NCBI GenBank assembly: GCA_964036195.1
Contig: OZ038454.1
Span: forward strand, 25,158,315-25,222,314
Reading direction: 5' to 3'
DNA: 64,000 nt
Source: Sphaerolaimus hirsutus
Lineage: Eukaryota; Nematoda; Chromadorea; Monhysterida; Sphaerolaimidae
Position numbers and translations under genes: made by a program. A model generated the notes under the pieces. It made no database searches and was not told the origin of the DNA. It saw only the letters and a program-made list of their open reading frames with translations. Positions 15,966 through 57,272 of the stretch are shown piece by piece. The first letter of the stretch is position 1. Each line of letters opens with the position of its first letter.

Positions 15966-15994
15966 TTCTTTCAATGCTAATCACAGCTCATCAC

Positions 15995-16501: not shown

Positions 16502-16512
16502 CTCATCACACC

Positions 16513-18240: not shown

Positions 18241-18594
18241 CATTGGATCAATGTCATCCATATGTTCTTGTGTTTTGGGCACTATGCGAATGCAATTTCT
18301 ACCTGGCGTATTCACTGTTGGAGGTGCCGTTCAATTGGAGGCTGCCGTTCTATTGTTTTCGTGAGCGCAAAAACATGCCAAAACCTGCCGTTCTATATTG
18401 TAGGTACCGTTCATTGGAGGTATGCCGTTCTATTAGAAATAATACTGTACCATACACATAAATAGTAGCTACAAAAAATTCTTTGCAGCTTCCAATTCAT
18501 GAAGCCCAACTGAGCATCTTAACGAAACCGAAAAAGTCTACGTAAAATTAATTATATTAGAAAGGATAATAATATGATCCGAGATATGTATGTG

Positions 18595-36636: not shown

Positions 36637-37324
36637 CTGCGTGTACGAGTCTTTTTGGACGAAACTACAAAACAAATGCCCTCAGTTTTGTACGCATGTC
36701 CGTCTTGTCAGTATGTCTTGGTTTCTCTTATCTACAGAACATGTCACGTAAACTGCTCCCGACTCAGGTTCGCCACTTGAATTACTTTTTTTTGCGCACT
36801 ACATTACTTTATTTATGGGGGTGTAAGAAGCCAAAGTTTAGGAAAATGTAGACCACATCCCCTCTGGTACATCAGCGTTATAACCCCTCGAAATACCCCC
36901 CTCTAAATTTCCACTATGAAAAAATAAACCCCCCTGGGGGTATTTCGAGGAAATCCGGTAATCATATTTTCCTCAAAAGCACCTATTCTTCAAAAGCACC
37001 TAAACTCGATTTTTAAGTATTTTTTCTAGGGGTGCAATAAAAATTCGAAAAGTCCTAAAAAAGTCGAAAATTCAAAAACGTTTTCAAATTTTCGAATCTT
37101 TTTTTGCCATCTTTACTCATCACACCCACATTTACCCTGCGTTGGTCAATGTTTTTTATCACATATTGTCACATATTCGGTGTGGGTAAAAAATGTGAAC
37201 TAACATATCAGGTTTGTGGCAGCATTTAGAATCGTCATTGTTACACTGCTCGGCTACACAAACTTTGTTTTATTTTGCACAGTTAGGTAATTAGAAAAAC
37301 ATCACATAAACCTAAAGTCGTATT

Positions 37325-39239
37325 TAGCATTCAAAAAATAACCCGTGATTTATATTTTCAAAAATCACAATAAATATAAATAACCTGTGATTTATATATA
37401 TTTATATTTTTTCCAAATTCTGAGTGATATATTTATATATATTTTTTAAATTTGAAAAAAAATCACTGAGAAAATCACTCATAAGCATTGTGGTGCAATT
37501 ATATTGTGGTGCAATTATTGCACTTTATGACTAAAACATGTAATCTGTGCAAGATAATATTTGCGAGTGATTTTCTCCAGAAAATCTCTCTGTTCATGCA
37601 GAGCATTATTGGGTTAAAATTGTATTTGAAGCAGGTAAATATTGTGCCTACACACTAGTTTTCACCCTGACTTTTTTGAAAACTGAAATGGCCAAAAATG
37701 GTGACATGTTTCCATCAAGTTTTCCACTACTGAAAGCTATATACAGGGTGGTGCACATCAGGTGCACGGTTTCAATCTGCTCTCAACAAGTCAATTTTAA
37801 ATGAAACCTGTTCAAATTTGGTATGGCAGTAGATAAATGCACCCCATTCAGTATGTTAAGAGCAGGTATTCATATAGCAAGATTTTTATGTCGGAACATG
37901 TAGCACATTGAATGGATGTTTTCCTTTGGAGTTATGTGAAGGAGAAGGTCCACAGTCCACAGTTGCCTAAAATGATGGACATTGAGCAGTTGAAGCATCT
38001 GATGGTCCAGCAGTTCAATGAAATTTTGCCTAGCATGCATGTGAATGTTGTGGGTGAAATGCTAAATCATTTGGGTATTGTCATATTGTGATAATGGCAG
38101 TGGTTCTGTGGAGTGGTTCTTTCATATGGTTTGATGTATGTGAAAATTTAGCAAATATGAATGTGTGCCCTTCACATACTAAATGGGGCACATTTATCTA
38201 CTGATATACCAAATTTCAGCACTTTTCATTAAAAATTGACATGTTGGGAGCAGATTGAAACTGTGCATCTGACATGCACCACCTGGTATGTTCAGTTTTC
38301 ACAAATGGCATGAATTTTGGTGTGTGGTGTTGGCAAATCACTAGTTTGATTACAACTCAAACTCAAATGATGACAAATGGTGACATCACCATCAATTAGT
38401 TTTCATTTTGTATGTGACAAAAATGTAAACTGTTTTAGTAATTTTTTATTTATGTCATCCTGCTATGAATTCTATGGTTATCTTTTAGGTATAAAGCATC
38501 TCTCTATCTTATAACATACTTTTTCTGAAATAAAACATGATTTTGAATCAAAAAATACCAATTTGATGTGATCAAAATTTATCTACAGTAATTGAAAGCT
38601 CAGTTTACCATTTTTGAAAATGCTTGGTGACATGCACCAATGTGAGCTGTTTTCAAATATGGGGAACAATTGTGGAAAACTGTCACTATGGTGTCACCAG
38701 TGCCACTACTGTCATTACAATGTTGCCAAAATGTAGCCATGTGTCCAAAAATGACTTTTCACAGCACATCACCATTGAAAAAGTGCTGAGCATGAGCACC
38801 TATTTAGTCAAACATCCATTGCCACAACCAGACGCTATAGGTTGAGTGCTAAATATTTGCAGTGCAACATATTTTTGAAGTTTTCATTGAGGTTGAACTG
38901 AAGGTTGAATTTTTCTGTGATATTTACTTGATGTTTTCACTTGTAAAATATTGTATAACTGAATACTGCTTGTGGAATGATAATAAATGGACTGTGGTAT
39001 ATTAGAGTACATTTTTTGTGCTTGCAAATGGTAAATAAAGCCCAGAATATTGCTTGAAATTGGAATAAAGCGCAAGTGATTTTTTTGAGATTTTTTTTGA
39101 ACTTAGAGTTATTTTTTCAGTAATTTAATTATATTTTTTGGAGACCTAGAGTGATTTATATATATTTATATTTTTTCCAATATTGGAGTGATATATTTAT
39201 ATATATTTTCCAAAAAATCAGTGATTTTTTCGAATGCTA
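37325..39239. mobile_element. hAT-like element, TAGCATTC family, 1.9 kb
   Basis: Ends TAGCATTCAAAAAAT and the right end TTTTTTCGAATGCTA, with flanks gtcgtatt and gtcatatt (7 of 8); copy A has the empty site near 17595-17605. Both ends carry ATATATTTATAT blocks. Inside, a piece near 37760-38280 is again an inverted pair (caatctgctctcaacaagtc). No transposase frame. Confidence 0.75.
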
Positions 39240-39569
39240 GTCATATTACATAATCGTCCAAATATCTGCTTGAAAGGTATACCTCCGTAGGGGATCAATT
39301 CAAGATATTTAATACAGTTACTGAGTTAGAAACACATACAGTACTTCGTCTAATAGAATAGCACCATTCTATTTTTTTATCTTTTTTTTTCACCTGCCGC
39401 TCTATTGGCCCTACACATACTAGTTTTCACTGTGAAAACTGAAATGGCGACATGGCGACATTCAGCCTACTTGTTTTGAATGCAATATGTGTTTTAGTTT
39501 TGAAATTTTCAAATTTTAACTTTCATTAATTTAAACTCTAATTTAAATCAAACCAAATCATTCAACTGT

Positions 39570-39985
39570 TGTAGGGTTCGTAGGCAGCGGTGATTGGCTG
39601 CAGGCTATTTTCTGTGTTTTTTGTATTTTTCATATTTTTGTGAAGTTTCGAAAAGTTGGTAGGTCTCGTAGGGTTTTTCCTTGATTTTAAGGAAATGTTG
39701 GCGCGCATATAAATAGCACCCGTGATTTTGAATCGCCACTTGTGTTTCGTAACTTTGGCAGCGTGTGTAAAAAGTAAAAAGGAAAAGTTCAACTTTTGGC
39801 TTGTTTTTGACACTCTTGCACTTGAAACGTTCACTTGACGCCATGTCATGGCGCCGTGTGTCTTTGGGTAAGTTGGAATAGGTCTGAGAGTCGGTTCTGG
39901 TCACTTGTTGTTGGGGTTTTGGCCAAGTGCCAACTTGTCAGTGTCTTTTTGGTATCCGCAGTCGTTCTCTGTGGTGTTTGCTACA
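39570..39985 (+). repeat. 5' LTR, 416 bp
   Basis: Begins TGTAGGGTTCG and ends TTTGCTACA, so TGTAG..CTACA are inverted ends. It carries tataaatagcacc near 39710 as a likely TATA box for the element's promoter. Confidence 0.9.
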
Positions 39986-39989
39986 GAAG

Positions 39990-40009
39990 TGGAGGTCTCA
40001 CCGAGATTC
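39990..40009 (+). promoter_or_regulatory. Primer-binding site, tRNA-Gln type
   Basis: TGGAGGTCTCACCGAGATTC, four bases after the LTR, is complementary to the 3' part of a tRNA-Gln-like acceptor arm (CTCGGTGAGACCT plus CCA). The U at the discriminator position fits tRNA-Gln. Confidence 0.7.
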
Positions 40010-40200
40010 GTATTTCGTCCGGTTGCAGGAGTTGTCGAGTCTCATGCGGGTCAACTTTTTCGAAACCCGGATCTACGTGTCGCTGGCGTGCGTGTTGGCA
40101 TCGAAGCGCCGCCTATCGGGCATATGCATTTTGGCCGCGTGCAACCGGGTCGCGAGCGGTACGTTTGATTTGCTTTGAGTGTTTTTTGAGTTGAGAAAAA

Positions 40201-42060
40201 TGGCTGGGTCCGATAGCACGGTTCCGAGTAAGTTGCGCCTCCCCGCTGCCACATTGCGTCGCCGCGTCACGCTTAATGATGCGCTTTTAGCTACTGTGCG
40301 CGAGGATGCGACTCTAACGGGTACTATGTTGAGTTTTTTTCGAACAAATGGGAAATTTGATTCACGTGAAATGGTTACAAAAAAAGGGTTTATCGACCGG
40401 GAGGGGTGAGGAAATTGACAGGGTTTTTTCGACAGTTGTTAGCTAGTCAGCGGCGTGATTTAGTTGAACGTGAGGAAGCTGAGCGCCGCGCGGCTGGCCG
40501 GGACATTTGCCCGCGGCATGATTCACTGGACGATTTTCCACCTGAACCCATGGCTCGTGGCGAGTCCGTCGACCGCGATGGTCCGTTGTGCCCGATCCAG
40601 GAGGCGGAGTCGGAAGCCGCCTCGGTGAGTTCACAGCGTTCGTCTTTGGGGATATTAGAGGAACCGGCGGGGTACTTAGCCGGGTTGGCGTTGGCGTTAG
40701 ACTGACTGAGTGAAATTATGCAGGGGGGAGTTGATAAAGTCAATTGGGGTGAACAGCGCGCCGAATGTCGTTTTCGGGAAATTGAAAAGAAGATAGATAA
40801 CCTGGCAGTTTGCCCAGAGAAAAACGAGGCTGGGTATAAGGAAAAGAGGTTTCCGAAGGTGGTTCTAGCGGGGTCAGAGGGAAATACCGGGGCGGAAATG
40901 GGTAAAGGGGTTGGGGGTTGGCGCGGTGCCAACCTGTACCGTAGCCAAGAGTATGTGTCGTATGAATTGCTTCCAGATGAGCGGGGGACAAATCAAAAAG
41001 CAGGTTCTATTCCTGAACCCGGCATGCATTACAGTATATCCCGTACACAGATGAATTGCCTGCTGGACGGTCTGGAGAGTTATGACGCCACCGGTGGAAT
41101 CCCACAGTTGAACACTTGGGAAGATTACGCTCGGACCGCGGAAACGCAGGTACATCCCAGTCAGAGGTCGGTTTTTTGGCGGTTGTTGTTTGGGGCAAAG
41201 TTGAAAGGAAAAGCAGGGTGATTTGTTAAAGTCGATAAAGCATATCGACCAGGATAAGCCTGATTTAGTTTTTGAGCAGTTGCGACAATTCATTGAGGGG
41301 CAGCGGGAACGCATGCGCGAAAGTGTTTTATTCCACAATGCATGGCAACGCGCTGTTGAATCAGTACTCCAGTACCATAATCATTTGAGGGAATGTATGC
41401 CCGACGCTCTCATTGCGTCGGATTGCAATGTCCGCCAAACACTGGGAATGAAAATACTAGGATCATTGGACAAGCAGATTTTGTATGAGCTGCATGTTTT
41501 GGATAGGGTGTGGGAAGACTTAAGGCACTCAGACAAACCGCTGATATTGTTGATTGGCATTTTAGACCGCATGCGGGATGAATTTTTGCAAAAAAGGCCC
41601 GGTGGGGGGGTAGCGCGTAATGCAAACATTCCTATGGGTGGGCGTTTTCAACCTAATAATTGACAAACGTTTCAGCCGACCCGAGCATTGAGCAGCTGGC
41701 CGCCCGCTGGCACTCCCGTCGAACGGAATGGGTACCCGCTGTGCCGCGACCCGGAACACTGTGGCCGGATACTGTACCATCACCCGGCAAATTGTTGGTT
41801 TAACCCGAACGGAAATGCATTCCGCCCGGACATGTTGAAACAAGGTCCTGGAAACGGCGCAAACAATAGTGGGACAAATCCCCGCGCAGGGGGATCTGGG
41901 CCCGGCGCATATCCCCATCTTGGAATGCAACAAAATCCCGCCTTTTTGCAGTGAAAGTCGACTCAATATTGACAAGCGTGAGCTGCGATCGAAACCGACA
42001 ATCGTGGACTGTACCGGTCGGAACAGGAGGGCGGAGCTTGTGAGCCTGAAGAAGACCAGT
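40201..42060 (+). CDS. gag: gypsy Gag (interrupted)
   Basis: Reading runs from an ATG at 40201 in three successive frames (40201-40409, 40406-41221, 41223 onward). It has an Arg/Glu-rich first part and a helical middle (LRQFIEGQRERMRESVLFHN, with ALIASDCNVRQTLGMKI) like a capsid. Near the end is a knuckle-like CRDPEHCGRILYHHPANC followed by a Gly/Asn-rich tail. All in-frame stops (40703, 41661, 41952, 41970, 41979) are TGA. Gag forms the particle that holds the element RNA. Confidence 0.65.
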
Positions 42061-42068
42061 GGAAAGAG

Positions 42069-42722
42069 ATGGTGAGTGGAGGATTGGAAAAAGATCGGGT
42101 TGGGGATTACGTGAACCGATTAGCGGCACTCGAAGGAGTGCCCCAGGTGGGGTGTCCAAACCGTGTGGTGTGTACTGAGCGATATGAAAATGCGAATGCC
42201 GCGAACGCGGTACGGTTAGGCCCAGGCCCGCACAGTGGGAAAGTGCTGCCCAAAAATGTGGTTACGGTCACTCCCGAAGATGAAGTCATTCCTGGAAGGT
42301 TGCCAAGTTGTTTACCAACAGCACATGTAGGCATGTTCAAGTTAACTGTGCCGGTTCCTTTGGACACCGGTTCTAGTTGTAGCATTTGCCCACTGTCTTT
42401 GCTAAGAGCTTTGTGGAATTGGGTCGGAATGGATCCAAAAGTCGAAATGAAAAAGTTCAAATTGGCGGAAAATGGCAATAAGTTAAATACGGTCAGGAGT
42501 GAAATCAGTAGTGGGGATATCACTTTCTATCCTATGCGACTCGAGCACGTTAGTCCACTAGATGGGGAAACTTATCAGGTAACCGCCGCAGTGATGGTAA
42601 TTAACGATGGAAAACCGGGGTCGGGTTTTGGAAAGGAATTTTTACTGGGAACTGACTTATTGGCCCCGCTCCATTGCCATCGCAATGTTCATATTAGATT
42701 ATCATTGGACTCGAACATGTGA
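42069..42722 (+). CDS. pro: gypsy aspartic protease
   Basis: In the frame of late gag. It has the catalytic motif PLDTGSSCSICPLSLLRALW, a flap-like part and FLLGTDLLAPLHCHR, which fits the second conserved loop of retropepsins. It ends at TGA 42720 where the RT frame takes over in +1. It cleaves Gag and Pol inside the particle. Confidence 0.8.
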   Translation: MVSGGLEKDRVGDYVNRLAALEGVPQVGCPNRVVCTERYENANAANAVRLGPGPHSGKVLPKNVVTVTPEDEVIPGRLPSCLPTAHVGMFKLTVPVPLDTGSSCSICPLSLLRALWNWVGMDPKVEMKKFKLAENGNKLNTVRSEISSGDITFYPMRLEHVSPLDGETYQVTAAVMVINDGKPGSGFGKEFLLGTDLLAPLHCHRNVHIRLSLDSNM

Positions 42723-45021
42723 AAATCATTTTGACCCCGCAGGTTCAAGCAGTGTGAAGCCACCACACACGAGTCTACCGTATGCCAGCGTCGCACGCCG
42801 AGCCGAATATTTGCAGCGCACGGAAATGACGCTTGGCGAAAAGCGCTCAAACATCGCCGGAAAAGGTTTGGGGGCGCTGGAAAAGTTTAGGTTGGTGAGT
42901 AGTGGGAACTATGTCATTGAGGGCGGGGCGTCTAGAGTTATGACATTAAAGTGTGCTGATAGGGCGGTGGTATTGGAAAAATGTGGAGTGGAAAATGTCG
43001 GAAAAAATGCTGTTTGGATGATTGACAGTTCACCCACGTTTGGGGCAGAAAATTGTAACGAAAATAGCTTCCTGGAAAATCTACAAGTAATGGGCACCGC
43101 GGTGGAGGAGGAGATGCCGATTCAAACAGCATTTTCTGTCGTCGTCACAAATCATTCGGCGGAAAAAGTGCATGTAAAAAGAGGGACAAAAATCGCAGAA
43201 ATTTCGCCGGTTTCTGGCTTGTGGAGGGCTACGTCGTGTGGTGCCGTCGTTTTGCCCGACGCGCCCGCGCCGAGTGACCCGACTTTCAATGTGGCGCCAA
43301 ATGTGGAGCGGGCAAGGAACATCCTGGATATGCTGCCAAAGGAGGAATGGAAAAACGTGCCAACGGAAGTCTTGGAACAGTTCCAAGGGTTAGTTGGAAA
43401 GTTTCACGACATTTTCTCGCTCAGCGAGGAGGAAATAGGTTGCACACCACTGTTGAAGCACAAAATTGACATTGTGCCCGACGCGATCCCTGTGAAGGTG
43501 AAACCGCGATATGAATCGCCTAGTCGTCGGGAAATTGTGCAGCGCACCATCAAGAAGTGGGAAAAATTAGGAATTATTGAAAAATGTGACAGCCCCTGGG
43601 GATTACCATTAGTCGTTGCGAAACGGGAAGATGGTAGGCCGCGGGTATGCGTAGATAGTCAGTTTTTGAATGAGGTCACAGTGAAATCCGCGTATGCGTT
43701 GCCACGCATTGCCAATTTAGTGCAGGAACTGGGGGGAAAAGTGATTTTTAGCTCCATTGACATTCGAGATGCGTACCACCACGTTGAGATCGCGTCGAGC
43801 GCGGAAAAAGATTTAGTTTCATTTGTGTGTAGCGAAGGGTTGTTCCGGTGCAATAGGCTCAGTTTTGGCCTCTGCAACGCTCCGGCAACTTTCCAACGTC
43901 TCATGAACCTGGTAATGTTGAAATTAAATACGGATCCCCGGTCCCCGTGGTGCCACTGTTATCTCGATGACATTTTGCTGAGTTTGAAACATTGGGAAGA
44001 GCACCTGAAACACATTGAGTACGTGTTTTGTAGGCTAAGGTGGGCGGATTTGAAAATAAATCCAATAAAAACGAAGTTTTGGCGCACCCATTTGGACTAT
44101 CTGGGGTTTGAAGTGCAGCCTGGGGGAATTCACCCTAAATTATCAAAAATCAGCGCCATTATGGAACAACCAAATCCCGCTACCAAGTCCGAGTTGCGGA
44201 TGTGGTTAGGTCAGGTGCAATATTTCAGTCAATTTGTTGAGAAATGGCTTCAGTTGAGTGCACCTTTGTATGAGCATTTGAAGGGGCATGTGCCAAAGAA
44301 GGATAAGACACCCGTTGAATTTTCGACCCACGAGCTTCAATGCATCGATAAAATTAAGGCTTCCTTGTGTCAACGCCCAATTTTATATTTGCCCAGGTAC
44401 GACCGGCCGTTCTACCTTGAAACCGATGCCAGCGACCACGGCCTCGGCATCATGTGCGCGCAGTTCCAGGACGATGGCAGCTACAAACCTGTCGCTTATG
44501 TGAGTAAGAAATTGGGTGCGGGAATGGAGGGCTGGTCGATTCCACAGCTGGAAGCACTAGCCGTTTCTTTTGGGATTATGAGATTGTCGGACATTTTGGA
44601 TGGAATGGACATCGTGATACGGACAGATTGCCGGGCGCTAGTGGATACTTTGCAAAAGAAAGAAAAGTCGAAATTAACACAGTGGAGTATTTACAAGAAA
44701 ACGCAAAAAGTGCGTATTGAGTTTAAAAAGGGGACGGATAACACGTTCACTGATGGATTAAGTCGGATGCCAGTCGATAGTGAGAAAGATAATGACGTGC
44801 TAGAACGTGCAAAATTGCTGTTGGGTGAAACTCATGCTGCGATTGCAGAAAACGTTGCCGAAATCGCATCCGCCGCTGGTCCCGCCGTCGACTGCATCGA
44901 ACGGCCAGTGCAGCAGTCGATAGATCCAGATTTGGTCGATATTGTGAAGAATTTGGACACTCAGGATGATGCCAAGGTATGTATGTGTGGGAATGTTTTA
45001 ATGTACAAAGGGGTAGAGTGA
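42720..45021 (+). CDS. pol: gypsy reverse transcriptase and RNase H
   Basis: A long intact frame (open back to 42607). The RT has KREDGRPRVCVDSQFLNEV, the FGLCNAPATFQRLM block, and the catalytic YLDDILLSL; YLGFEVQPGGIHP follows. RNase H: YLETDASDHGLGIM, VAYVSKKL, QLEALAVSF, IRTDCRALVDTL and a final DGLSRMP. All catalytic acidic residues expected are present. It ends with TGA 45019, and the same frame continues directly into integrase. Confidence 0.9.
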
Positions 45022-45879
45022 TTCAAACCATTCCCGCCGTGTCACATGAGGGATGCATTGATCGTGGAAGCCCACGCGGGCGATCTAGGCGCACATAGTG
45101 GTCGATATTGCACTTTTCGTCTGTTGTCGGTGTTTGCAGCGTGGCCTGGAATGATGAAACAAGTTCAGGCGTTTGTGGACCAGTGCGACGTGTGTCGAAA
45201 GACGAAACCGCAAAAAGCGCCACCATTTATTCCATTGCCATCCGAAGTTGAGGTTGTGCCTTTTCGAAAAGTAGGTGTGGACTTGATGACACTTCCAAAA
45301 TTTGGTCGATATACTGCTGTACTTACAGTGGTAGATTATTGCACCCACTTTGTACTGTTCACTCCCATTACGCAGCACACTGCCGCCAATGTGGCCGACG
45401 TGTTCCTGCGCAACGTGATTTACCGATATGGTGCGCCGCGCCATGTCGTGTGTGACCAAGGGGCGGAGTTTGTAGGCAAAGCATTCCAAGTGTTGGCTGA
45501 ACGCTTGGGGTATAAAATACATTTTTCGCTGCCGCGAAGTCCGCGCGCCAACGGAATGGCAGAGCGTGCACACCGCACGCTCCAACAAATTTTGCGCGCA
45601 CACTTTTTAGAATTAGGTGCCATAGATGAAGTCGGCGAATTGACAAAGTGGAATTGGGTGGATGAGATTGCGCAGGCTTGCTTAAAATACAACTGCACCT
45701 TGAATATAAGCACCGGCTTGGCGCCATTCCAAGCTTTGCATGGCTACATGCCTGACTTGATAGTGCGCGTAGGTTCAAAATTGCAACGTGTCAGCGGGGG
45801 CGTGACTGAGATAGGGGAGTTACAACGGCTGAAATGCGCGCCAACACTGTACGCGACAAGACCTTGTCGCAGGAGATAA
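45022..45879 (+). CDS. gypsy integrase
   Basis: HHCC zinc module: EAHAGDLGAHSG with QCDVCRKTKP. Catalytic core D,D,E: VGVDLMTLPKFG, VVCDQGAEFVG and RANGMAERAHRTLQ. It inserts the DNA copy. The frame is lost near 45830, where a second frame (45834) takes over; a one-base shift is the simplest explanation. Confidence 0.9.
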   Translation, partial: FKPFPPCHMRDALIVEAHAGDLGAHSGRYCTFRLLSVFAAWPGMMKQVQAFVDQCDVCRKTKPQKAPPFIPLPSEVEVVPFRKVGVDLMTLPKFGRYTAVLTVVDYCTHFVLFTPITQHTAANVADVFLRNVIYRYGAPRHVVCDQGAEFVGKAFQVLAERLGYKIHFSLPRSPRANGMAERAHRTLQQILRAHFLELGAIDEVGELTKWNWVDEIAQACLKYNCTLNISTGLAPFQALHGYMPDLIVRVGSKLQRVSGGVTEIGELQRLKCAPTLYATRPCRRR

Positions 45880-46316
45880 CTACCAAATTAGAGCCGGGCT
45901 GTCAAGTTTATGTCCAGCGTCATTTTGACTCTCTGCACTCCGCATCAAAAAAATTGGCTCCAATTTGGTGGGGCCCTTATGTTGTCACTGCCGTCTTTAA
46001 TAATGTAGTTCAGGTGGAAACCGATGGTGGAACATGGTTGATTCCAATTGATAAGGTTTCTGTGTACAGGTCCGACTCGTTACTGGAGCGCCCGCGCGCG
46101 CCGCCGCCGTCGAATGCGCGCTATGCGACCCGCTTCAATGGCTGTTTTTTTTGTCGGCTCTCGGACCACAAATGGGCCACCTGCACCAAACGAAAAATAA
46201 AGTTGTTTGTACAGCCCATTAAGCGTCTGCATATCATTGCGGAAGCTTTGGCCGAGCGCACTGGCGAAGAATATTGCCAGGGCAGTTTGGTCAGTTTACA
46301 GTGTGACTCGTGCTAA
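45834..46316 (+). CDS. Pol C-terminus: GPY/F module plus a CCHC zinc knuckle
   Basis: KLAPIWWGPYVVTAV is the GPY/F motif found after the integrase core in gypsy elements. About 50 residues later comes CFFCRLSDHKWATC, a perfect C-x2-C-x4-H-x4-C knuckle. Such a knuckle normally belongs to Gag; at the end of Pol it is unusual. Ends at TAA 46314. Confidence 0.75.
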   Translation: MRANTVRDKTLSQEITTKLEPGCQVYVQRHFDSLHSASKKLAPIWWGPYVVTAVFNNVVQVETDGGTWLIPIDKVSVYRSDSLLERPRAPPPSNARYATRFNGCFFCRLSDHKWATCTKRKIKLFVQPIKRLHIIAEALAERTGEEYCQGSLVSLQCDSC

Positions 46317-46365
46317 TGTGACGTTGTTGATTTTTATTTAGAAAACTTTAGAAAAAAAAAGAAAA

Positions 46366-46581
46366 ATGAGAATATTGGGAAAAGTTTTCATTGGTTTTAT
46401 TTCATTTGGTGGATTTTGGCTTTTGAATTTTGGTGTTGTGTTTAACCAATTTGTTCGAGTGGCTTTGCATTCTTTTTCTTTCCCTGTTATTTATATCATT
46501 TCCAGTTCTTCACTTATTTATGTTGCACTTACCTATTTAGCGCTGTGGTGTTGGTGGACTAGTTTTACTTCGGTGAGATAG
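46366..46581 (+). CDS. Small hydrophobic frame, doubtful
   Basis: 71 codons, very rich in Phe, Leu, Ile, Val and Trp, with room for two membrane spans. It lies between pol and the first exon of the extra gene, so it may be the rest of an envelope gene or only AT-rich intron sequence. Base use is AT-rich, unlike the exons. Confidence 0.2.
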   Translation: MRILGKVFIGFISFGGFWLLNFGVVFNQFVRVALHSFSFPVIYIISSSSLIYVALTYLALWCWWTSFTSVR

Positions 46582-46610
46582 ACGTGGGCGACGTTGCTTT
46601 GCTTATTTAG

Positions 46611-49600
46611 CTCGACGACCAGCGTGTGGCGGCCTACATCAAGACGCTTGAGGATCACCCCACCCAAAGCGACAACTCGGTGCGCACGGCCATCGCGTTC
46701 TTCACGTCCAACTGGTTCAAGTTGACCGTGTTCGACATGGACGCCCGCCCAGCCGAGGAACTGGCAGCCCTGATTGGCGAGCCGATCTATGCCCCGCGCC
46801 CCATCATTTCAGACTTGCCTGACTATGCGCGCCGCGGGCCCTGGCGCCGTGCCAGCCAGCGAAAAATGCGCCATGCGCAGTACTTGGCGCCGCGCGTCGG
46901 TTTTCTTTGCTTTGGTATTTACTAATTTTGGCTATCCCCGTATTCTCAAACTTAGAATTGGGTAATGTAGGGCACCATGCTAATGCGAGCCGTGATGGAG
47001 CCCAGTTGGGGCCAACCGGCACCCGAGTTGATGGATCTCCCCTGGAAATCAGACACGCGCTTGATTTTTCAGCACATGCCCCGCAACGAGCATGCTGCGT
47101 ATGGCCTGGCGAACAACTTCCGTCAGGAGCCAACGCCGATGCAAGCCGCCACGCACCCGAATGCTCCGCAGGTACTTTATGGCGCATTTTGAAGTCATGA
47201 GAAAAATGACGGTATGGTACTGTCACAGGTTTACCGCCCCGAACCGTCCATCCCCTTGGAGCTGACGCACACCGAGTCGGCCAAGCACGCGGTCAGCTCC
47301 GGCAGCACTGTCGCCGCCGCCACGGATAAATTGGACGTTTTTTTGGGGGGGGGGGGGGAAACGCGTCATGCGTGAAGGTGTGAAGTGCCATGCGAGAAGT
47401 CATGTGTAATTGTGGTGATGAAAAGAAAACTGAGTAGACGTTTTGTGAGTATTTTGCGAGTTAAAAAGTTTTTATTGAGTTTTGGAAAAATTGAGTGGAC
47501 GTTTTGTGAATATTTTGCGAGTTAAAAAGTTTTTATTGAGTTCAGTAAATTGGTACGCTCAATTACGTTGTGGAAAATGGTTATCGACAAAAACTTTTCC
47601 AGGCCTGTGGCAAGGGCGCACACATGACGCTGGAGCAGGTCAAGCAGGGCACCAGCATGCTGTATAGCCTGCTGGATCCGGCGAGCACAATCGCACTCAT
47701 GGCGCGCAAGCTTGGCAAAACCGAGTGGGGCCAGCAGAGGGTGAGTGTCTTGTTAAGAGTGTGAGATAAGTGGAGGGAAATGGAACTCGTGTGAGAATGT
47801 CGTCGGTACCGCGCAGGCGCCCACCTAGGGTGTCAAATTTCCGTTTCCGTTTTCCGTTTCCGCCTTTCCGCAGGAAAATTTTTTACCTTTCCGTTTTCCG
47901 TTTTCCGGCAGCCGAAAAATTTTTACCTTTCCGTTTTCCGTTTTCCGGCAGCCGAAAATTTTTTACCTTTCCGTTTTCCGTTTTCCGGCAGCTGAAAATT
48001 TTTTACCTTTCCGTTTCCGTTTTTCCGGCCCATTTTTCCGTTTTCCGGCTGAAAAATTTTTACCTTTCCGTTTCCGTTTTACCAGGCCATTTTTCCATTT
48101 TCTGGCTCGATTTTCAGTTTTCTGGCATTTTTCCATTGTTTTTCCAATCTGTATTTATCTTCAATTGGCTCATTGCATTGTGTTGTTTTTGTCTCTTGGA
48201 GCAGCATTGACAACTGGGATTTCAGGGTCAGTGAAACAGGTGCTGTGAACCCAATATGCTGACACCAATAATTTATTCAAGTTTCATCTGGTTGGTGTTG
48301 TGATGCTGTCAATTTGCAATTTTGGTGTTGATATTGCCAGCATGTCTGTTCAGTGATTTTATTTCATGCCCATTACTGCGACAATTTTATTCACCTTTGG
48401 ACTCCTGTTGTTTTCTGCTATTTCATTCATGACTGATCTGGAGTTTGACAGCCATTCCCTCATGTTCATACAACATTGGTTAAATAAAGCTTTGACTTTG
48501 TAATATAGTTCTAAACTTCAACTTCATTCGTGACACTCATGATGAAGTTATCGACATAAATGTTGTTTATTATCATCACCAACTGGTTTCGTTCCCCTTC
48601 ATTTTCTTCATATTCATTCATGTTGTTTATTGTCACATTTAAATGGTATTTTATGACTGCTCCCAAAATTGCTGGGCTGCAGACAAGTCCAAACAGTACC
48701 GTTTAAAACAAAGTACTATTAAGTTATTTTCAGTTACTGGTTTTGAGGCATCTTTCAGCCAGAAAAATCGTGTGTAGTCTCTAGCTTGGTCATGCAATCC
48801 TATTTGCAAAAATGTCTTTTCAATATCGGCAATTAATGCTAGATTGCCTGCCCTGAACCTCAGGAGTAAGCCCAGTGCTAATGGTGTTGTAATTGGTCCT
48901 CTAAAGAGGCACTCATTGAAACTGGGCTTACCTGCCGACCCATCGTACACGATTCTGCATGATGTTGATTTGCCTGGCGTGATTACTGGCTGGTGTGGCA
49001 GGTAATGAATCCCCTTGTTGTCTGTTTTGTTGTCACAGATCTCAATTATTCCCTTTTCTAGTTGGTCGTCCAAAACTTTCCGGTAATGTTCGAATAAGTT
49101 TGGATCTTTGTTGAATCTTCTTATCAGTGATTTAAACTGCACCAAGGCTTCTGCTTTTCCTGTGGGCAGGTCACTGATACTCTATTTATACAGCCAGTCA
49201 ATATAGTATTGTTTGTTGTTGTTGTTGAATTTTATGCTATTTATTATCATCTCCTCTGCAATGTTGTCATCAATTGCATAGGGGTCATCAGTGATTCCCA
49301 CTGCTTCTAGACTGTGAAATTGTTGTAGTGTTTCCTTTCCTATGGCCACTATGGCTACTTTTTGATGATTTTTTGTTGGTTCAGTAAAGCTTGAACTACA
49401 AGTGAAGTTACAGGCATGATCCATAGTTACAGAATGTACAGCTACCACAATCAAAGCCAAACAAGCAAACCTGCATGCAGGTTTTCCTTCTGCAAATTTG
49501 TCTATTACCGTGCTAATTTCACTTTATTTTTTTCCATTTCCGTGAAAATTTTGCTTTCCGTTTTCCGTTTTCCGGCATTTCATTTTTCCGTTTTCCGTTT

Positions 49601-50278
49601 TCCGGCTGACAATTTTTTTTTACCTTTCCGTTTTCCGTTTTCCGCTGAGTGAAATTTTTTTACCTTTCCGTTTTCCGTTTTCCGGCAGATTTTTTTTTTT
49701 TACCTTTCCGTTTTCCGTTTTCCGTAAAGTGAAAAATTTTTACCTTTCCGTTTTCCGTTTTCCGTAAAAAAAAATTTTTGACACCCTACGCCCACCCCAG
49801 TGCCTGACTCAGGCCCGCTGCCTCCGTACCTGCCGGAGACGCAGCCGAGCGACCCGCAGCCCACCGTTCTGCCGAAACCGCCCGTAGCAGCCGTGCAGCT
49901 GTTCTGCTCGGTTGTCAGCGTGGCGTCCAGCCTGGAGGGCGAGGCCGGCTCGCCGCCCCCGTCGTCGCCGGGCAGCGCCGGCACACTTGGCTCCCAGCTG
50001 TTGTTCGACGACGCGGACGACACCGAGCTGATTGAGGCTATGGCGGGCAACATGGGAATGGATGAAGTGAGTTCTGGGAGTGGAGTATTTTCTGAGTAGA
50101 TAATGAAAATATTATGGACGATGGGCGCCTCTGGAGGAAACACAGCATAAGTCCGGTGAAGGAAAACTGTTTGTTATAGGATGCGGCCGCGATCGACGCG
50201 ATGCTGCAGTCGCCGGCAGACAACACCGAGGACTGGGCGGACCCGGAATTGGATGACCTGCTCCCGGAAGAGGACTAA
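46611..50278 (+). CDS. Extra spliced gene inside the LTR element, product unknown
   Basis: Exons: 46611 to about 46910 (end unsure), 46971-47171, 47229-47336, 47603-47740, 47817-47825 joined to 49797-50066 (split by a hAT element), and 50180-50278 with TAA. Acceptors (tatttag, aatgtag, gtcacag, tttccag, gcgcag, gttatag) and most donors (CAG|GTACTT, AGG|GTGAGT, GAA|GTGAGT) are good; exon 3 ends at a weak GTTTTT. Exons 2 to 5 are whole numbers of codons and all join in phase 0. The roughly 380-residue product has no cysteine pattern, membrane span or Env motif. Parts read FFTSNWFKLTVFDMDARPAE, QVKQGTSMLYSLLDPAS and a Pro-rich segment. The end is strongly acidic with scattered Leu/Met/Trp (EDWADPELDDLL), like an activation domain; that is inference. 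No start codon exon was found; it may be spliced from the element's leader. Not recognised. Confidence 0.6.
47826..49788. mobile_element. hAT-type element, 1.96 kb, inserted in an exon
   Basis: Ends TAGGGTGTCAAA and TTTGACACCCTA, exact 8-bp duplication cgcccacc (47818-47825 and 49789-49796). The arms are arrays of TTTCCGTTTTCCGTTTTCCG. The centre holds BEL/Pao pol sequence on the minus strand. With the element and one duplication removed, the exon reads on as A-P-T-P-V-P-D-S. Confidence 0.9.
48651..49460 (-). pseudogene. BEL/Pao retrotransposon pol fragment
   Basis: Two minus-strand pieces, 49460-49182 then 49145-48651, separated by one stop. The first has FHSLEAVGITDDPY (the lead-in to Pao RT), the second HYLPHQPVITPGKSTSCRIV, YDGSAGKPSFNECLFRGP and ALIADIEKTFLQIGL, all typical of the BEL/Pao RT palm. 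It stops before the YxDD motif. A retrotransposon piece carried within a hAT-type element is a nested capture. Confidence 0.85.
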
Positions 50279-50605
50279 GGAGACCTGGTTTTGGTAAAAG
50301 TTGAAGGGGCGTGATTTTTTTGTTTTCGTTTTAATCGCTGTATTTTGTGTATGTACAATTGGATTGCTAATTTTGGGGTCGTTTTTTTGTGTCAATTAGA
50401 GTGGTAAAGTAGCCCCATTGAGTGTTTTTGGGTCCTATAAGTGGCCTTTTATGTACAGAATTGCTCAATTTTGCTAATATTGGATTGCAGTGTTTTGTAT
50501 TTTTTTTACTGTCGACATTGCACTCGTTTCACCAGTCAGGGAAATTGTCATAATATTACTAAGGGGTAGAGAAGGGTACGTTTTACCGGGACACCGTTTT
50601 TTTTT

Positions 50606-50621
50606 TGGGGGGGGGGGAAAT
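50606..50621 (+). promoter_or_regulatory. Polypurine tract
   Basis: A run of eleven G followed by AAAT stands right before the 3' LTR, where plus-strand synthesis is primed. Confidence 0.75.
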
Positions 50622-51075
50622 TGTAGGGTTCGTAGGCAGCGGTGATTGGCTGCAGGCTATTTTCTGTGTTTTTCGTATTTTTTGTATTTTTGTGAAGTTT
50701 CGAAAAGTTGGTAGGTCTTGTAGGGTTTTTCCTTGATTTTAAGGAAATGTTGGCGCGCGTATAAATAGTGCCCGTGATTTTGAATCGCCACTTGTGTTTC
50801 GTAACTTTGGCAGCGTGTGTAAAAATTAAAAAGGAAAAGTTTAACTTTTGGCCCGTTTTTGACACTCTTGCACTTGAAACGTTCACTTGACGCCATGTCA
50901 TCGCGCCGTGTGTCTTTGGGTAAGTTGGAATAGGTCTGAGAGTCGGTTCTGGTCACTTGTCGTTGCTTGTCTACCTCGCCTTGGTTCTCGCTACCTGTTG
51001 TTGGGGTTTTGGCCAAGTGCCAACTTGTCAGCGTCTTTTCGGTATCTGCAGTCGTTCTCTGTGGCGTTTGCTACA
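50622..51075 (+). repeat. 3' LTR, 454 bp
   Basis: Same ends as the 5' LTR. It has 38 extra bases (around 50960-50997) absent from the 5' LTR, otherwise close. Confidence 0.9.
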
Positions 51076-53360
51076 CCGTGTTCATTAATTTGCATTTGAA
51101 AAAATTGCAGTTTTCCCACGAAGTCACGGTGAAAACTAGTGTGCGTAGGCACATTGGATCAATGTCATCCATATGTTCTTGTGTTTTGGGCACTATGTGA
51201 ATGCAATTTCTACCTGGCGTATTTACTGTTGGAGGTGCCGTTCAATTGGAGGCTGCCGTTCTATTGTTTTCGTGAGCGCAAAAACATGCCAAAACCTGCC
51301 GTTCTATATTGGAGGTACCGTTCATTGGAGGTATGCCCTTCTATTAGAAATAATACTGTACCATACACATAAATAGTAGCTAAATACAAAAAGTCTTTGT
51401 AGCTTCCAATGCATGAAGTCCAACTGAGCATCTTAACGAAACCGAAAATGTCTACGTAAAATTAATTATATTAGAAAGGATAATAATATGATCCGAGATA
51501 TGTATGTGATGAAGTACCGTATTTCCTCGAAATACCCCCTGGGGGTGATTGTTTCAGAGTGAGAATTTTGAGGGGGGGTTAGACGAGGGGGGGTATTTCG
51601 AGGGGGGCTTATTATTTCGCCAGAAATTTTTTGAAATTCCAGTACTAAACTGTCGTCTGTAACGTACACAGCAGAGTTGCGAAAGCGTATTTACGCTTAC
51701 CCGAAATACCCGGGTAAATGGGTATTTATACTTACGCTTACGCTTATGCTTTCATAAAATACCCGTACGCTTTATTACGCTTTGCCGGCCGAAATACCCG
51801 GGTACTAAAAGCGTAAAAAAGTTTTTCACATGGTCCAGTTTTATGCTTTTGTAAAAAGTGTAAAAATATAAAAAAGAAAGTGAATGAAACTGCATACCAA
51901 AAAGTGACTGCATGTGTGCAGTAATGCACTGGAAATCGTGGCACATGTACAAATTGTGTCGCAATATGAATGTCACTTTTATACTGTGTCCTCGGGCAAA
52001 TTATTTAGATGGCTTTAGAATAGAAATTTTGCGGCCGAAAATGCACGACGTCCGAGTTCGAAAATGAAGATGACATAAGTACGTAGTATGTCTTACGTTT
52101 ACGCTATTAGAAGACATGTGGTAAGTATTTATGAGAATTAGGTATAAATACATCGCAAAAATCGACAGCACAAAGTCCGAGTACAGAAATGAAGATTGAT
52201 TAACTGTCGCTGTCGATTAATTGCTATCAACATCTAAGGGCAGACTACCAAGTGGACATCCGAAAAATGTCGCTGAAAGCTTGATTTTGAACGAATTCAC
52301 TGAGCAAAAACTCCCTGAAATTTTTTTACACTTACGCTTTATTTTACGCTTTCCTAGGTATTTAAAAAATACCTTGCGCTGTCAGTATCCACACTCAAAA
52401 TTTGGAAAGTGTATTTACGCTTACACTTACGCTTTCCAAAAATACCGGTATTTTAACAACTCTGGTACACAGACGTAGAAAAATGCAACAATAACTGCTA
52501 TATATAAGAGTCTACTGAGTTATATATGTGTGTAACACTGTTCCAAAGTAACAATTCATTGTTTTAACGTGCATTGCCCGAATCACAAACCGCAGTTTTG
52601 TCATGTACGTTGTCTGTACGCTCAATTGGGGGGGGGGGGTATTTCGAGGGGGTGGGTAATTATTTCACAGTGTCCATTTTGAGGGGGGTATTTCGAGACG
52701 GGGTGGGGGGTATTTCGAGGGGGGGGGGGGTATTTCGAGGAAAAAGGGTAACGGTAAGTACCTAGTAAATACCTAGGGTCCCTATTATCTTTATCGGATA
52801 AAACGATCCGTACGGTCTAAATAAACGAAAAAAATGTAAATTTTTCGGCGATTGCCGTCAATTTTATGTTGTAATTGATGAGATAAAATCGACCGAGTTC
52901 ATCAAAAAATCGGAAAACATGGATTACCGATTCCTGAAAAATGAATGTAATGTTAGCACTTGTTCACGACAAATTTTAGAGTTACATCTTCATCTGATGT
53001 ACCTAGGTAGGACCGTCTTTCCTCGAAATACCCGCCTTGAATAAACCCCCCTTGAAATACCCCCATGAGTGTTCGAGCTGAGGCAAAAATTAACCCCCTG
53101 GTGGTATTTCGAGGAAATACGGTAAAAATAATTCATGTTACTGCGTGGCTCAGTTTTTCCTTTCAGCGCAAATTTTTCATTTTACTGTAAGTTGGGTTTT
53201 AATAATTAAGAGTGTATGATGCCACGGCAGATGTGCCTAACAACAGTCGCTTCGAATCGAAACTGATAGATGTTTGCACTGATGCATTGTCATGTGCCAT
53301 TCAAACATGAGAATGAGAACTAGGTAGTGATGGAAAAGTGCCTGGAAAAATGGTGTCATG
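51076..53360. repeat. Right part of copy B, collinear with 18165-20730 of copy A
   Basis: Collinear non-coding sequence with the G-run elements. Copy B lacks some of the extra G-run units of copy A and contains the hAT element at 51672. Confidence 0.75.
51672..52464. mobile_element. hAT-type element (CAGAGTTG family), 793 bp
   Basis: Ends CAGAGTTG and CAACTCTG with the exact 8-bp duplication gtacacag (51664-51671 and 52465-52472); copy A has a single gtacacag at about 19196-19203. Dense TACGCTTACGCTT and ATACCCGGGTA words near both ends. No transposase. Confidence 0.9.
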
Positions 53361-53734
53361 GTCAACGATGGCAAAAACACACATATTAAATTTGGAAACT
53401 CATTGAGTTTCCGTGTTTTTGTTTAACACAGAAACACAGAAACTCAACAATTTTGAAAAACACGGAAACTCAAATGAGTTCTTTTTTGGAGAACACGGAA
53501 ACACGGAAACACAGAAAATACGGAAATGTTTTTTTGAGTTTTTTTAATCCAAGCAATTGAAGGCACATGATTTGAACTGAACAATGTGTGTATGTGCATA
53601 CATAAGGTATGCATGTATGTATAGTGTGTAAATATGTACATAGTATCCAAGTTCAACGATGAAAAAAGTATCCAAAAAATAATGGTGTCCGCATCTCCTC
53701 TGGTGGTTTGGACAATATTAGGGACCGTGAAAAT
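53361..53734. other. Junction of copy B and copy C
   Basis: Starts with a lone left end of the AACGATGGCAAA family and goes on with GAAACTCA/ACACGGAAAC repeats and ATGTATGTA words. Neither copy A nor copy B has it, so it marks the duplication boundary. Confidence 0.5.
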
Positions 53735-54790
53735 TATAGAGGGGGTCGCTGTATATGTGAAAAAATTTTGCGGCGTTTTCACTGTCCTGCACAGGTCCGG
53801 CCCCCAGTTTATTTCTTACGCTACGGCTTGTAAAAGGGGCGTCAGATGCCAATAACGCCTCAGGAAAATGGTGCTAAGTGCTAATGACCTTCTCAAATGG
53901 CGCCAGTGCCAGGGCGCCATTTTATCACTAATCCTGATGCCTTGATATTTTTTCCCAATCCCAAACCTTAAATTTTAAACTGCTTTTTTCGCTTTTATTT
54001 TGTGACAAACTTGACCCGCTGGTTTAGGGTGTTTTATAGAGGAAGGTTTAAGGTTCCAAGTTGCGTAAAGAACTATACCCCAAAAATGCCTCATTAGAAA
54101 ATTTACTTGGGGTTAATTCAAAATAGAAAATTTTGACAATTTTTGTTCCTGTAATGGCGTAATTTTGACATCATAACGTTCACCCCAAGTAAATTTTATA
54201 ATTGAGGTATTTTAGAGGTAAAGTTTTTTATGCAGCTTGGAACCTTATACCCCACTCTTAAAAACATCCTAAACCAGTGTGTGAAGTGTGTAAAAAAATA
54301 AAAGCAAAAAGTGAATTTTTAAATTTGCCAAGTTCTTTTTCTTGTCTGCTGCTTAGGGGGTGGGTGTTTGTGGAATGTTTGTGGCTTAGGGCCATGGCAC
54401 TGGCGCCATTTGAGGTAGCCAAGTGGTGCCACGCCATGGCACCTATTTCCTGTGGCGTTATTGGTGCCTGACACCCCTTTTTCAAGCCATAGCGTGAGAA
54501 AAAACTGGGGGCCGGACATGTGCAGGACAGTGAAGACGCCGCAAATTTTTTTCACATATACGGCAACCCCCTCTATAGTTAGTCGCCGCTGCCCCATTTA
54601 TTCATGACGGGTAGTGGGGGGTTGCACCTATATACCAACAAGTATTAGCTTTCCACCCCACCCACAACCAGAGATAGGGGTGCGAAGTGAAAATAAAAAT
54701 AGGGGGCCGGACTTGATCGGGAAGGTGTTTATTTACAAGGTAGTTCCATTTCAAGCATCCAGATTCAGAAAGGTTCAATTGACAAATAGG

Positions 54791-55593
54791 CAGAGTTGCG
54801 AAAGCATATTTACGCTTACCCGAAATACCCGGGTAAATGGGTATTTATACTTACGCTTACGCTTACACTTTAATTAAATACCGCTTTATTACGCTTTCCC
54901 GGCCAAAATACCCGGGTACCGAAAGCGTAAAAAATATTTCACATAGCCAATTTTAATGCTTTTGAATAAGCATAAAACTACAAAACAGAAAGTTAAGTAG
55001 AACGTGTAGAGATAAAAAGTAACTGCGTGTGTGTAGAAACGCTCTGAAAATAGCGTCACATGTACAAATCCTGTGAAAATATGAGCACAATGTGCCTACT
55101 GGCTAAGTATAGAGTCTAGAAATTTTGCGGTTTCTGAATTCGGAATTTTGGTGCCATAATTGATTCTGACGACGATGTTGTCACCATTGACAGCACTAAG
55201 TCTCAGTTAGAAGATAACGCAGACCAGAGTGCCGCTGCTTTAAAACACCATAACATCCTAGCGCAGACTACCAAGTGGGTGTCCTACTAGACCCCTGGTG
55301 TTGAACAATGTTTATTTGTTACGTTGATCGTGATCTTTGATTGTGTTGATAAAAAAATGTGAAAATGAATGGAAACAACGTATGAACTTATCTAAAAGTG
55401 AATGCAAAGGTGTTTTTTGATCCTCAACAGCCAGATCACTTTCTAAGAAAAAGTTTACGCTTACGCTCTATTTTATGCTTTCCTAGGTATTTTAAAAATA
55501 CCTTACGCTTTTAGTATCCATACTCAAAATTTGTAAAGTGTATTTACGCTTACGCTTTCGCTTTCCAAAAATACCGGTATTTTAACAACTCTG
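54791..55593. mobile_element. hAT-type element (CAGAGTTG family), 803 bp
   Basis: Same ends as 51672-52464, exact 8-bp duplication caaatagg (54783-54790 and 55594-55601); copy B has the empty site at about 33290. The centre differs from the other member. Confidence 0.9.
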
Positions 55594-55681
55594 CAAATAG
55601 GTAATACAAATATGTAAAAATTTGAACACAGCTCATCGCAATTCACTCCCGTATAGATTTCAGATAGAAACATCAGGCCAT

Positions 55682-57272
55682 TCAGTATTCGAGAATACGC
55701 CACTCATAATTCTGCGCCGTCTCGATGTGGTTGTTGTGTCCCTTGGGCATGGGTTTGTGCAGCTGGCAGTGGGCGGAGTCGGCGCCGTAGCTGAACGAGA
55801 AGCAGAAGCGGTTGGCGGCGCACTTGTGCTGGCAGCGCACCACCGACGCCACGCCCCACTCCTCCGACAGCACCAGCACGCTCCCTGTGGGGCAGTCCCA
55901 GACCCTGTAAAGTGTCAAATGTCATGCAAAGTGTCAAAAGTAATGGAAAATGCCCTGCGAAATGGCAACCGAGTTGCCATATTGCGGGGCATTTTCCATT
56001 ACTTTGGACACTTTACATGACTTTCCCATTTTACAGGGCATTTTTCAGGGTCTGGGACTGCCACCTGACACCAGACGACGGTTGCGCAATATTGTTACCG
56101 CCTGCAACAAAGAATCAAACTATTTTAGGGTGCAGTTACAAGTGTCAAACATTTCCCTCAGTCAGCTAACAAGCAGGTAGTGATGGAAAAGCGCCAGAAA
56201 AAAGGGCGCCAGGCGCCAAGGGCGCCATGGCGCCATTCGGAAAGCGGGCGCCAGGCGCCAAGGGCGCCACGGAAAGAGGGCGCCAAGCGCCAAGGGCGCC
56301 ATGGCGCCATTTGAAAAATAGGGCGCCAGGCGCCAAGGGCGCCAGGATAAATAAGTGCATAGAACACCCTGCCTGTGCTAAAACAGTTTCTACAGCACCC
56401 TAGTACACACATTCACTACTTGATTTGCGTTTTCCAGGATGTAATGAACAAAAACAACACTAGAACAAAAAAATTAAAATAGAATCCACATGACGAATTC
56501 AAACACAATGGATATTGTCATTTGACAACAATACATTCTCTTCAAATAGACTTTCCCAATCAATGTTTCCTTAAATTGGCCAAAAAATGGAATTGCAACG
56601 ATTTTAATCTGTTGATTTTTGATGTTGCAAGTTCAACGGTTCATTATTCTCATCTTCTGATTTGTCAGACACATCTGATGAACCGTTGCAAAAGCATTTC
56701 ACTCGCTCACACCACTTCGTCCATTTTTCTGGCAAATTAAGATGATCCACTGATGCGTTTTTTATATTTTTTTCATTTACACAGCACTCACCTTGAAACC
56801 CTGCTGGCGCCTTTTTGGCGCCCTTTTAAAGCAGGGCGCCAGGCGCCAAGGGCGCCACGGAAAAAGGGCGCCAAGCGCCGAGGGCGCCATGGCGCCTTTC
56901 AGAATATGGGCGCCAGGCGCCAAGGGCGCCACAGAAAAAGGGCGCCAAGCGCCAATGGCGCCATGGCGCGGCGCCCTTTGGCGCCCTCAATTGGCGCCAG
57001 CGCCATGGCGCCATTCCATCACTACAAGCAGGAGTTATACAAGGGGGGGTGTTTCGAGGGGGGATTTGATCGAGGATGTACGGTAAAAAAAACCCCCCAA
57101 AAAAGTCCAAACCGAAGGAACGGACAACAAATTTTTTAATTAAAGCCTGATCCTCCAGCTGGCACATGACCCATCGCGCAGTAGTACCGTCCACTACAAT
57201 ACCATCCTCAATTTCTAAGTAGCGTGTGTACAGTCGGCTGTTTGGCCCGCCAGTTGGTTTAGCCCAAAGTGT
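55682..57272 (-). CDS. C-type lectin + PAN/Apple gene, copy C (3' part only)
   Basis: Exons 57147-57272, 56065-56101 and 55682-55884, equal to exons 5, 6 and 7 of copy B, in one frame: SRLYTRYLEIEDGIVV, then RWVMCQLEDQ, AVTILRNRRLVSG and the PAN/Apple part identical to copy B. Upstream of 57.77 kb the lectin exons 1 to 4 are missing, so the copy is truncated. In exon 5 it differs from copies A and B by LYTRY for LSTT, with one codon more. Intron 6 (55885-56064) is the same introner-like element as in copy B; intron 5 holds the 847-bp GCGCC element. Unless fused to another promoter and exon it cannot make a complete lectin. Confidence 0.65.
55885..56064 (-). mobile_element. Introner-like foldback, intron 6 of copy C
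   Basis: Same position, ends and GGCAACCGAGTTGCC centre as 33579-33759; a few substitutions on the right arm. The exon junction is again in frame. Confidence 0.8.
56178..57024. mobile_element. GCGCC-array element (TAGTGATG family), 847 bp
   Basis: Ends TAGTGATGGAAAAGCGCC and GGCGCCATTCCATCACTA, exact 8-bp duplication caagcagg (56170-56177 and 57025-57032); copy B has the single site at about 33862. Arms are arrays of GGGCGCCAGGCGCCAAG. Non-coding. Confidence 0.9.

Follow-up and report, generated by a model that had tools for sequence, protein, structure and literature searches.

A predicted nine-exon accessory gene in the env position of a Ty3-type LTR retrotransposon lineage of the nematode Sphaerolaimus hirsutus

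Complex retroviruses produce regulators such as Rev, Tat, Rem and Tas from multiply spliced transcripts while keeping their genome unspliced, and lentiviruses additionally possess a central polypurine tract. Here, we describe a long terminal repeat (LTR) retrotransposon of the nematode Sphaerolaimus hirsutus that carries, in sense orientation, a predicted intron-containing gene in the position of env. It lies in a stretch of 64,000 nucleotides (assembly GCA_964036195.1, contig OZ038454.1, positions 25,158,315 to 25,222,314 of the forward strand), hereafter called the window, whose coordinates are used throughout. Unlike complex retroviruses, it is an LTR retrotransposon, in which we found neither env nor a sequence relationship to these viruses. 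A described parallel is the Ty3/gypsy-type element Cer1 of Caenorhabditis elegans. Its CERV gene is an env-position open reading frame (ORF) unlike Env that is expressed from a five-exon spliced mRNA, encodes 517 amino acids and uses gag coding sequence, while the genomic RNA retains its splice sites and is exported unspliced (PMC10309623). Based on conserved sequence features, we consider it highly probable that the S. hirsutus lineage encodes one spliced accessory protein besides gag-pol, with introns that would survive by way of an unspliced genome RNA.

Like Cer1, the S. hirsutus element is of the Ty3/gypsy type, and its conserved splice sites predict a multi-exon, non-Env gene in the env position that shares coding sequence with gag-pol; the likeness to CERV is drawn from this predicted arrangement. 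The gene described here differs from CERV in having nine predicted exons, a start codon within the LTR and several introns behind pol, in sharing an exon with the pol tail, whereas CERV shares one with gag, and in including both a segment reminiscent of histone H2B and a second, intronic polypurine motif. Moreover, the primer site is of the tRNA-Gln type (TGGAGGTCTCACCGAG) and not the tRNA-Pro type (TGGGGGCCG) required by Cer1 (PMC10309623). Functional introns that give rise to subgenomic RNAs have been described for the LTR retrotransposons Ogre, from plants, and EVADE, a Ty1/copia element (PMC12786077), and Retand contains TRP28 ORFs in antisense orientation between pol and the 3' LTR (PMC11963269). 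The Retand ORFs are antisense, whereas the gene considered here is sense and multi-exon. The introns of Ogre and EVADE reportedly serve the expression of gag or pol, whereas those of the S. hirsutus element would serve a separate multi-exon accessory gene. Cer1 CERV and the Ogre and EVADE introns were the parallels found within the open-licence literature, in which, as represented by titles and the beginnings of abstracts, this combination was not described.

The element in the window is full-length and spans positions 39570-51075. Both of its LTRs begin with TGT and end with ACA, and they are identical at 400 of 416 aligned bases, with transitions accounting for 14 of the 16 differences and one 38-bp indel besides. 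Its 4-bp flanks, CTGT and CCGT, agree at three of four bases, and an empty site without the element is found near 18164, in a copy of the surrounding DNA termed copy A; together, the flanks and the empty site confirm a single insertion. The proposal that the LTRs, the tRNA-Gln-type primer site, the polypurine tract, the near-identical flanks and the empty site define one element was thus confirmed. Copy A, which lacks the LTR element, belongs to a duplicated stretch (12564-20725 versus 35447-39569 plus 51075-53362) made up of colinear pieces that are 86-97% alike. The primer site at 39990 is one we take to be that of tRNA-Gln. In addition to the LTR pair, the short target-site duplication (TSD), the tRNA primer site and the polypurine tract expected of Ty3/gypsy-type elements, Pfam recognizes the Ty3-like order reverse transcriptase-RNase H-integrase, and the best protein matches are pol proteins, many of them with the same domains. 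By this domain order and these matches, we assign the element to a Ty3-type LTR retrotransposon lineage. Because its pol is only 28-37% identical to the listed 120 of 781 matches in the protein database, this lineage is sparsely represented there. The piece 41982-42719, the part of the gag/protease-position region covered by the scan, had no Pfam match.

A DNA search of the host assembly (348 Mb, 762 contigs) with positions 46320-47815 returned four further loci (C736, C7, C2 and C759). Local alignment of the fetched stretches identified each of them as an LTR element that has both this pol and the accessory gene. Their LTR pairs are 99.3% (C7), 99.1% (C2), 94.3% (C736) and 78.6% (C759) identical, and TSDs were found for C7 (GCGC), C2 (CCGG) and C736 (TCGT), those of C7 and C2 being perfect over 4 bp. 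Since the introns are present in C7 and C2, whose LTRs are nearly identical, recent insertions have kept them. In a census based on the pol tail, 72 candidates were scored and 37 rows listed. These comprise five close members, which account for six rows (68-100%) and all have the gene, 17 distant members (41-50%, with a match spanning the zinc knuckle), three partial and eleven weak ones; C6:17995107 and C530, which have equal scores and frame lengths, may be duplicates. Both of the distant copies that were read (L055 and L056, two of the 17) hold the first two env-position exons, E1 and E2, behind pol. Relative to C7, their E1 is 34% and 30% identical (expectation values, E, of 3e-8 and 2.6e-6) and their E2 46% and 50% (E 6e-7 and 4e-8), respectively, and none of 2000 shuffles reached the E1 scores of the distant copies. 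In one distant relative, E1 and E2 follow an open frame of 2097 amino acids; exons after E2 were not recognized in L055 and L056. The C359 sequence, a 99.985% overlap of window positions 49520-56199, was not counted as a copy.

Two further sequences are of note in this context. A remnant on C1 (L048, ~4553-5972), also not counted as a copy, comprises the end of E1, E2-E6 and the internal T/G run described below; no pol or LTR was detected in it, and it might reflect decay or a gene freed from its element. The C736 copy (L031, 3348-6222) contains ~2.9 kb of extra DNA in intron 0, the matching ends of which overlap by ~9 bp (46380-46388), probably representing another insertion.

From the aligned copies, the gene is predicted to comprise nine exons that join in phase to encode about 500 amino acids (Table 1), and all phases agree in the window copy. 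The sequence-only reading had placed six exons with good splice sites between pol and the polypurine tract. These exons do exist at that place, but the gene does not begin at 46611, since three conserved exons (A, B and C) lie upstream; the donor of the first of the six is weak, and the long fourth intron is not a plain intron but mostly the result of a younger transposon insertion (47826-49788). Exon A ends in phase 1 at a GTAAGTT donor that is invariant in the aligned copies. Exon B, whose donor is in phase 2, is open in the window copy, C7 and C2, and in all ten pairs its third codon positions hold the most differences. The acceptor of exon C reads TA[CT]AG in all five copies and is in phase 2. 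Conservation of pol extends up to GGCAGTTTG/GT and is seen again from TAG/CTCGACGAC onwards (slashes marking splice boundaries). Because both of these intron 0 junctions are in phase 0, the env-position exons would continue the frame of the pol tail by splicing, and the pol frame of an unspliced RNA would hit a stop within intron 0. E1 is open in the window copy, C736, C7 and C2 and has two stops in C759; C7 is open in all nine exons. In the alignment, C7 and C2 seem to use a different CAG as the E4 acceptor than the window copy, still in phase 0. With 14 sites scored in each of the five copies, GT or AG is read at 68 of the 70 junctions, and the two others are both in C759, namely the donor of exon C, which reads GAG, and the acceptor of E3. 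The search patterns behind this count mostly presupposed GT/AG, and it illustrates the alignments, which are the actual evidence; the two sites of intron 3 lie outside it, its donor coinciding with the T/G motif.

Table 1. Features of the window element and of the transposon inserted into it; fractions refer to the five close copies.
Feature	Position	Strand	Description and basis
5' LTR	39570..39985	+	Paired with 50622-51075; aligned with 4 other copies
Exon A	39843..39867	+	ATG + 22 nt inside LTR, donor GTAAGTT at 39868; ATG and donor aligned in 5/5, always 25 nt
Primer binding site, tRNA-Gln type	39990..40005	+	Sequence TGGAGGTCTCACCGAG (TGG...); aligned in 5/5
Exon B	40029..40158	+	130-nt exon behind the primer site and ahead of the gag ATG; all five copies have a GCAG/ acceptor and a GT donor
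gag and protease-position region	40200..42719	+	ORF list, gag ATG; several frames in the window copy
pol	42601..46313	+	Reverse transcriptase, RNase H, integrase, zinc-knuckle tail; Pfam RVT_1, RNase H, rve, Integrase_H2C2; ORF list
Exon C	46070..46289	+	Knuckle CX2CX4HX4C in the pol tail; TACAG acceptor and TTTG/GTCAGT donor
Intron 0	46290..46610	+	Conservation halts at donor, returns at TAG/CTCGACGAC; contains stop of unspliced pol
Exon E1	46611..46895	+	95 aa, Arg-rich end
Exon E2	46971..47171	+	74-93% nt identity between window copy and each of the 4 others; codon position 3 has most of the differences
Exon E3	47229..47336	+	Histone H2B alphaC-like segment; copy alignments; acceptor not found in C759
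Internal polypurine-tract-like motif	47338..47361	+	T run, then G run; start of intron 3
Exon E4	47603..47740	+	Copy alignments
Exon E5, first 9 nt	47817..47825	+	47818-47825 = target duplication of the inserted transposon
hAT-like element in exon E5	47826..49788	+	Terminal inverted repeat TAGGGTGTCAAA, 8-bp TSD, high-copy family
Exon E5, remainder	49797..50066	+	Acidic stretch at end; copy alignments
Exon E6	50180..50278	+	Stop at aligned place in 5/5; acidic end DPELDDLLPEED
3' polypurine tract	50597..50620	+	With T run; motif search of five elements
3' LTR	50622..51075	+	Paired with 5' LTR

The phase-0 junction between the pol tail and E1, together with the possibility that the exon C acceptor is incidental, could also mean that the downstream exons form a spliced C-terminal extension of Pol (Gag-Pol-X), with exons A and B encoding a small independent leader peptide. 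We regard this arrangement as improbable, given that the acceptor motif of exon C is present in the right phase in all five copies and that exon B measures exactly 130 nt in each of them, with matching phases.

The exons of the accessory gene show the mark of selection at the protein level. Between the window copy and the four other copies, differences at codon positions 1, 2 and 3 number 166, 134 and 428, respectively (counted over E1, E2, E4, E5, E6 and the pol tail, with E3 excluded), which excludes chance as an explanation. Nonsynonymous-to-synonymous ratios (dN/dS) of 0.12-0.25 in the six pairs of four copies, with E3, the beginning of E5, the E2 of C736 and the whole of C759 set aside, indicate purifying selection on the exons. 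Introns 0, 2 and 5 were compared with ten shuffles in the three pairs formed by the window copy, C7 and C2, and eight of the nine values do not exceed the shuffled range; intron 0 lies within that range in all three pairs, and intron 2 of the pair formed by the window copy and C7 slightly above it. The search for other full copies that the earlier reading had called for thus revealed exons and introns in all five close copies, with the exons under purifying selection. These data bear on a second rival explanation, in which a host gene was captured as DNA together with its introns and is carried as a functionless passenger. Although the high G+C content of the exons, the H2B-like segment and the broken exon 5 of the window copy would agree with such an origin, the same gene occurs in five of five close copies and E1/E2 in two of two distant copies examined, which contradicts a single private capture; in addition, dN/dS is low and the splice phases continue into the pol and LTR of the element itself. 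A search of the host genome with E1, prompted by the idea of a parent gene, found nothing outside the five elements at E 0.001 (25 candidates scored); as the E1s of L055 and L056 escaped this same search, it rules out no more than a close parent gene, and an old one would be beyond its reach. Overall, capture of a passenger is very improbable.

A motif of at least five T followed by at least six G occurs at two places in all five elements, once before the 3' LTR and once at or near the start of intron 3; the window copy and C736 have an additional, shorter TTTTGGGG near the 3' end. The T/G 11-mer is found three times in the window versus 0.13 times expected, with the third occurrence at 57093 on the minus strand. 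In the distant copies, L055 has an internal T9G5AG5 run (L055:1602), and no internal T/G run was seen within the 1.5 kb read of L056. As the internal motif overlaps the predicted intron 3 donor, it would be absent from the fully spliced RNA. Its natural reading would be that of a plus-strand primer.

The predicted protein contains a zinc knuckle encoded by exon C, an arginine-rich end of E1 and an acidic C-terminus ending in DPxLDDLLPxE. This CCHC knuckle (46070-46289) follows the integrase in the final part of pol and is also seen in L055. The alphaC helix of H2B contains acidic-patch residues of the nucleosome. E3 of C2 and C7 matches this helix (PGELAKHAVSEGTK), and between them these copies preserve almost the entire helix (C2 PGELDKHAVSEG, C7 AKHAVSEGTK); the segment is weaker in the window copy and degraded in C759. 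The E3 profile reached E 6.6e-4 with the top-scoring chain, in which H2B occurs twice, and at least 0.56 with the rest; E3 of C2 on its own gave E 1.7e-7 for the double-H2B chain and 0.014-0.045 for the other 59 shown of 173. The match was equalled by none of 5000 shuffles for C7 and C2 and by 14 of 5000 for the window copy. That the E3 segment acts as a nucleosome mimic is a guess. As to a histone fold elsewhere in the protein, E1 (window copy, C7 and C2) as well as E2 and E4 (C7) scored like shuffles against H2B, so that a fold suggested by eye for E1 was rejected. Likewise discarded were a protein A match of E1, a repeat artefact, and a Nef match with E 1.1; a tblastn search of phage records with E1 returned nothing. 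An envelope (fusion) gene, spliced as in the gypsy errantiviruses and making the element a producer of retrovirus-like particles, would fit the location after pol and the spliced arrangement, but it is hardly credible, as no env, fusion or glycoprotein domain exceeded the Pfam cut-off and the zinc knuckle, arginine-rich stretch and acidic end are unlike a surface protein. A short membrane-like ORF at 46366, considered as an env candidate, lies inside intron 0 and is unconserved in C7, C2 and C759.

Several observations weigh against an element-maintained accessory gene. The window copy is dead: its pol is interrupted by an in-frame stop (after 45018) and shifts frame near 45810, and a transposon splits its exon 5. 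Lesions are also present in the relatives. The pol of C7 contains a stop and probably a frameshift. In C2, exon C contains a stop and E5 an indel; in C736, a base is inserted in E2, and exon B contains one stop each in C736 and C759. The splicing of the gene is predicted from conserved splice sites, and exons A and B are proposed on conservation and phase; for exon A, the copy comparison showed no third-position bias, and its reading frame follows from the model. The E1 donor, GCGC/gtcggt, is weak, yet its GT is kept in all five copies. Similarity above that of the shuffles was seen for intron 1, between the window copy and C7, and for intron 3, in all three pairs. Finally, no homologue of the accessory protein was found among 7,696 and 7,996 word-sharing candidates of limited lengths from a database of ~5.8 billion proteins, and the gene has no Pfam match above the cut-off. 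For these last two reasons, any function assigned to it draws on composition.

Even so, the accessory gene remains the reading we favour. The sequence-only reading had offered, as its first branch, a spliced gene in the env position that is maintained by the element, with unspliced RNA as the genome; the five close copies, the dN/dS values and the two distant copies with E1 and E2 support this, while its extent had to be revised, as the gene reaches back into the LTR. According to the mechanism we propose, unspliced RNA would be exported, translated into gag-pol and packaged as the genome, allowing the introns to survive retrotransposition. The fully spliced RNA would yield an accessory protein of about 500 amino acids with a zinc knuckle, an arginine-rich stretch, an H2B-like segment and an acidic end. 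Acting in the nucleus, this protein may either help to export the unspliced RNA, in the manner of CERV in Cer1, or promote its transcription, by transactivation through the acidic end, and the polypurine motif in intron 3 may prime plus-strand DNA. The arginine-rich stretch and the knuckle fit RNA or DNA binding, and the acidic end fits activation. By analogy, we lean moderately towards a regulator of some kind; an export factor specifically is a more tentative suggestion. It is conceivable, if rather unlikely, that a lentivirus-like programme evolved independently here, in which splicing separates genome from message by means of a nine-exon regulator that starts in the LTR, contains an H2B alphaC mimic and is accompanied by an intronic plus-strand primer tract.

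The transposon that interrupts exon 5 was inserted 9 bp inside the exon. It has the ends TAGGGTGTCAAA and TTTGACACCCTA and is flanked by an 8-bp target duplication, CGCCCACC; the C736 copy lacks it, the overlap between the two matches of that copy being precisely the 8-bp target. An assembly search returned 43 rows, of which 38 are other near-full copies at 95-99%, and the family is young. Among 19 further loci that were fetched, 18 showed both ends. A perfect 8-bp duplication directly adjoins the element at 15 of the 18; of the remaining three, one has a duplication shifted by a base, one a match at 7/8 and one at 6/8 positions. Terminal inverted repeats and 8-bp target duplications, as in hAT elements, are thus found both in the window and at other loci. 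The one ORF scanned for a hAT transposase (48651-49181, minus strand) had no Pfam match above the cut-off, and the element is probably non-autonomous. Its ends carry tandem 40-bp TTTCCG-rich repeats. Elsewhere in the window, an inverted repeat (914-2059 and 8814-9959; 1146 bp, 98.7% alike) flanks a region that contains an ORF for a reverse transcriptase (3243-4634, minus strand; RVT_1 5.4e-34). Scans of the window for tRNAs and Rfam families were empty.

Introns in sense orientation are expected to vanish from an element that is copied through RNA, yet here they are kept in recent insertions as well as in deeply separated copies. The retention of an unspliced genome by retrotransposons thereby becomes testable outside retroviruses and Cer1, and our findings suggest that spliced regulators arose more than once. 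Moreover, the conserved H2B-like segment would give such elements a new contact with chromatin.

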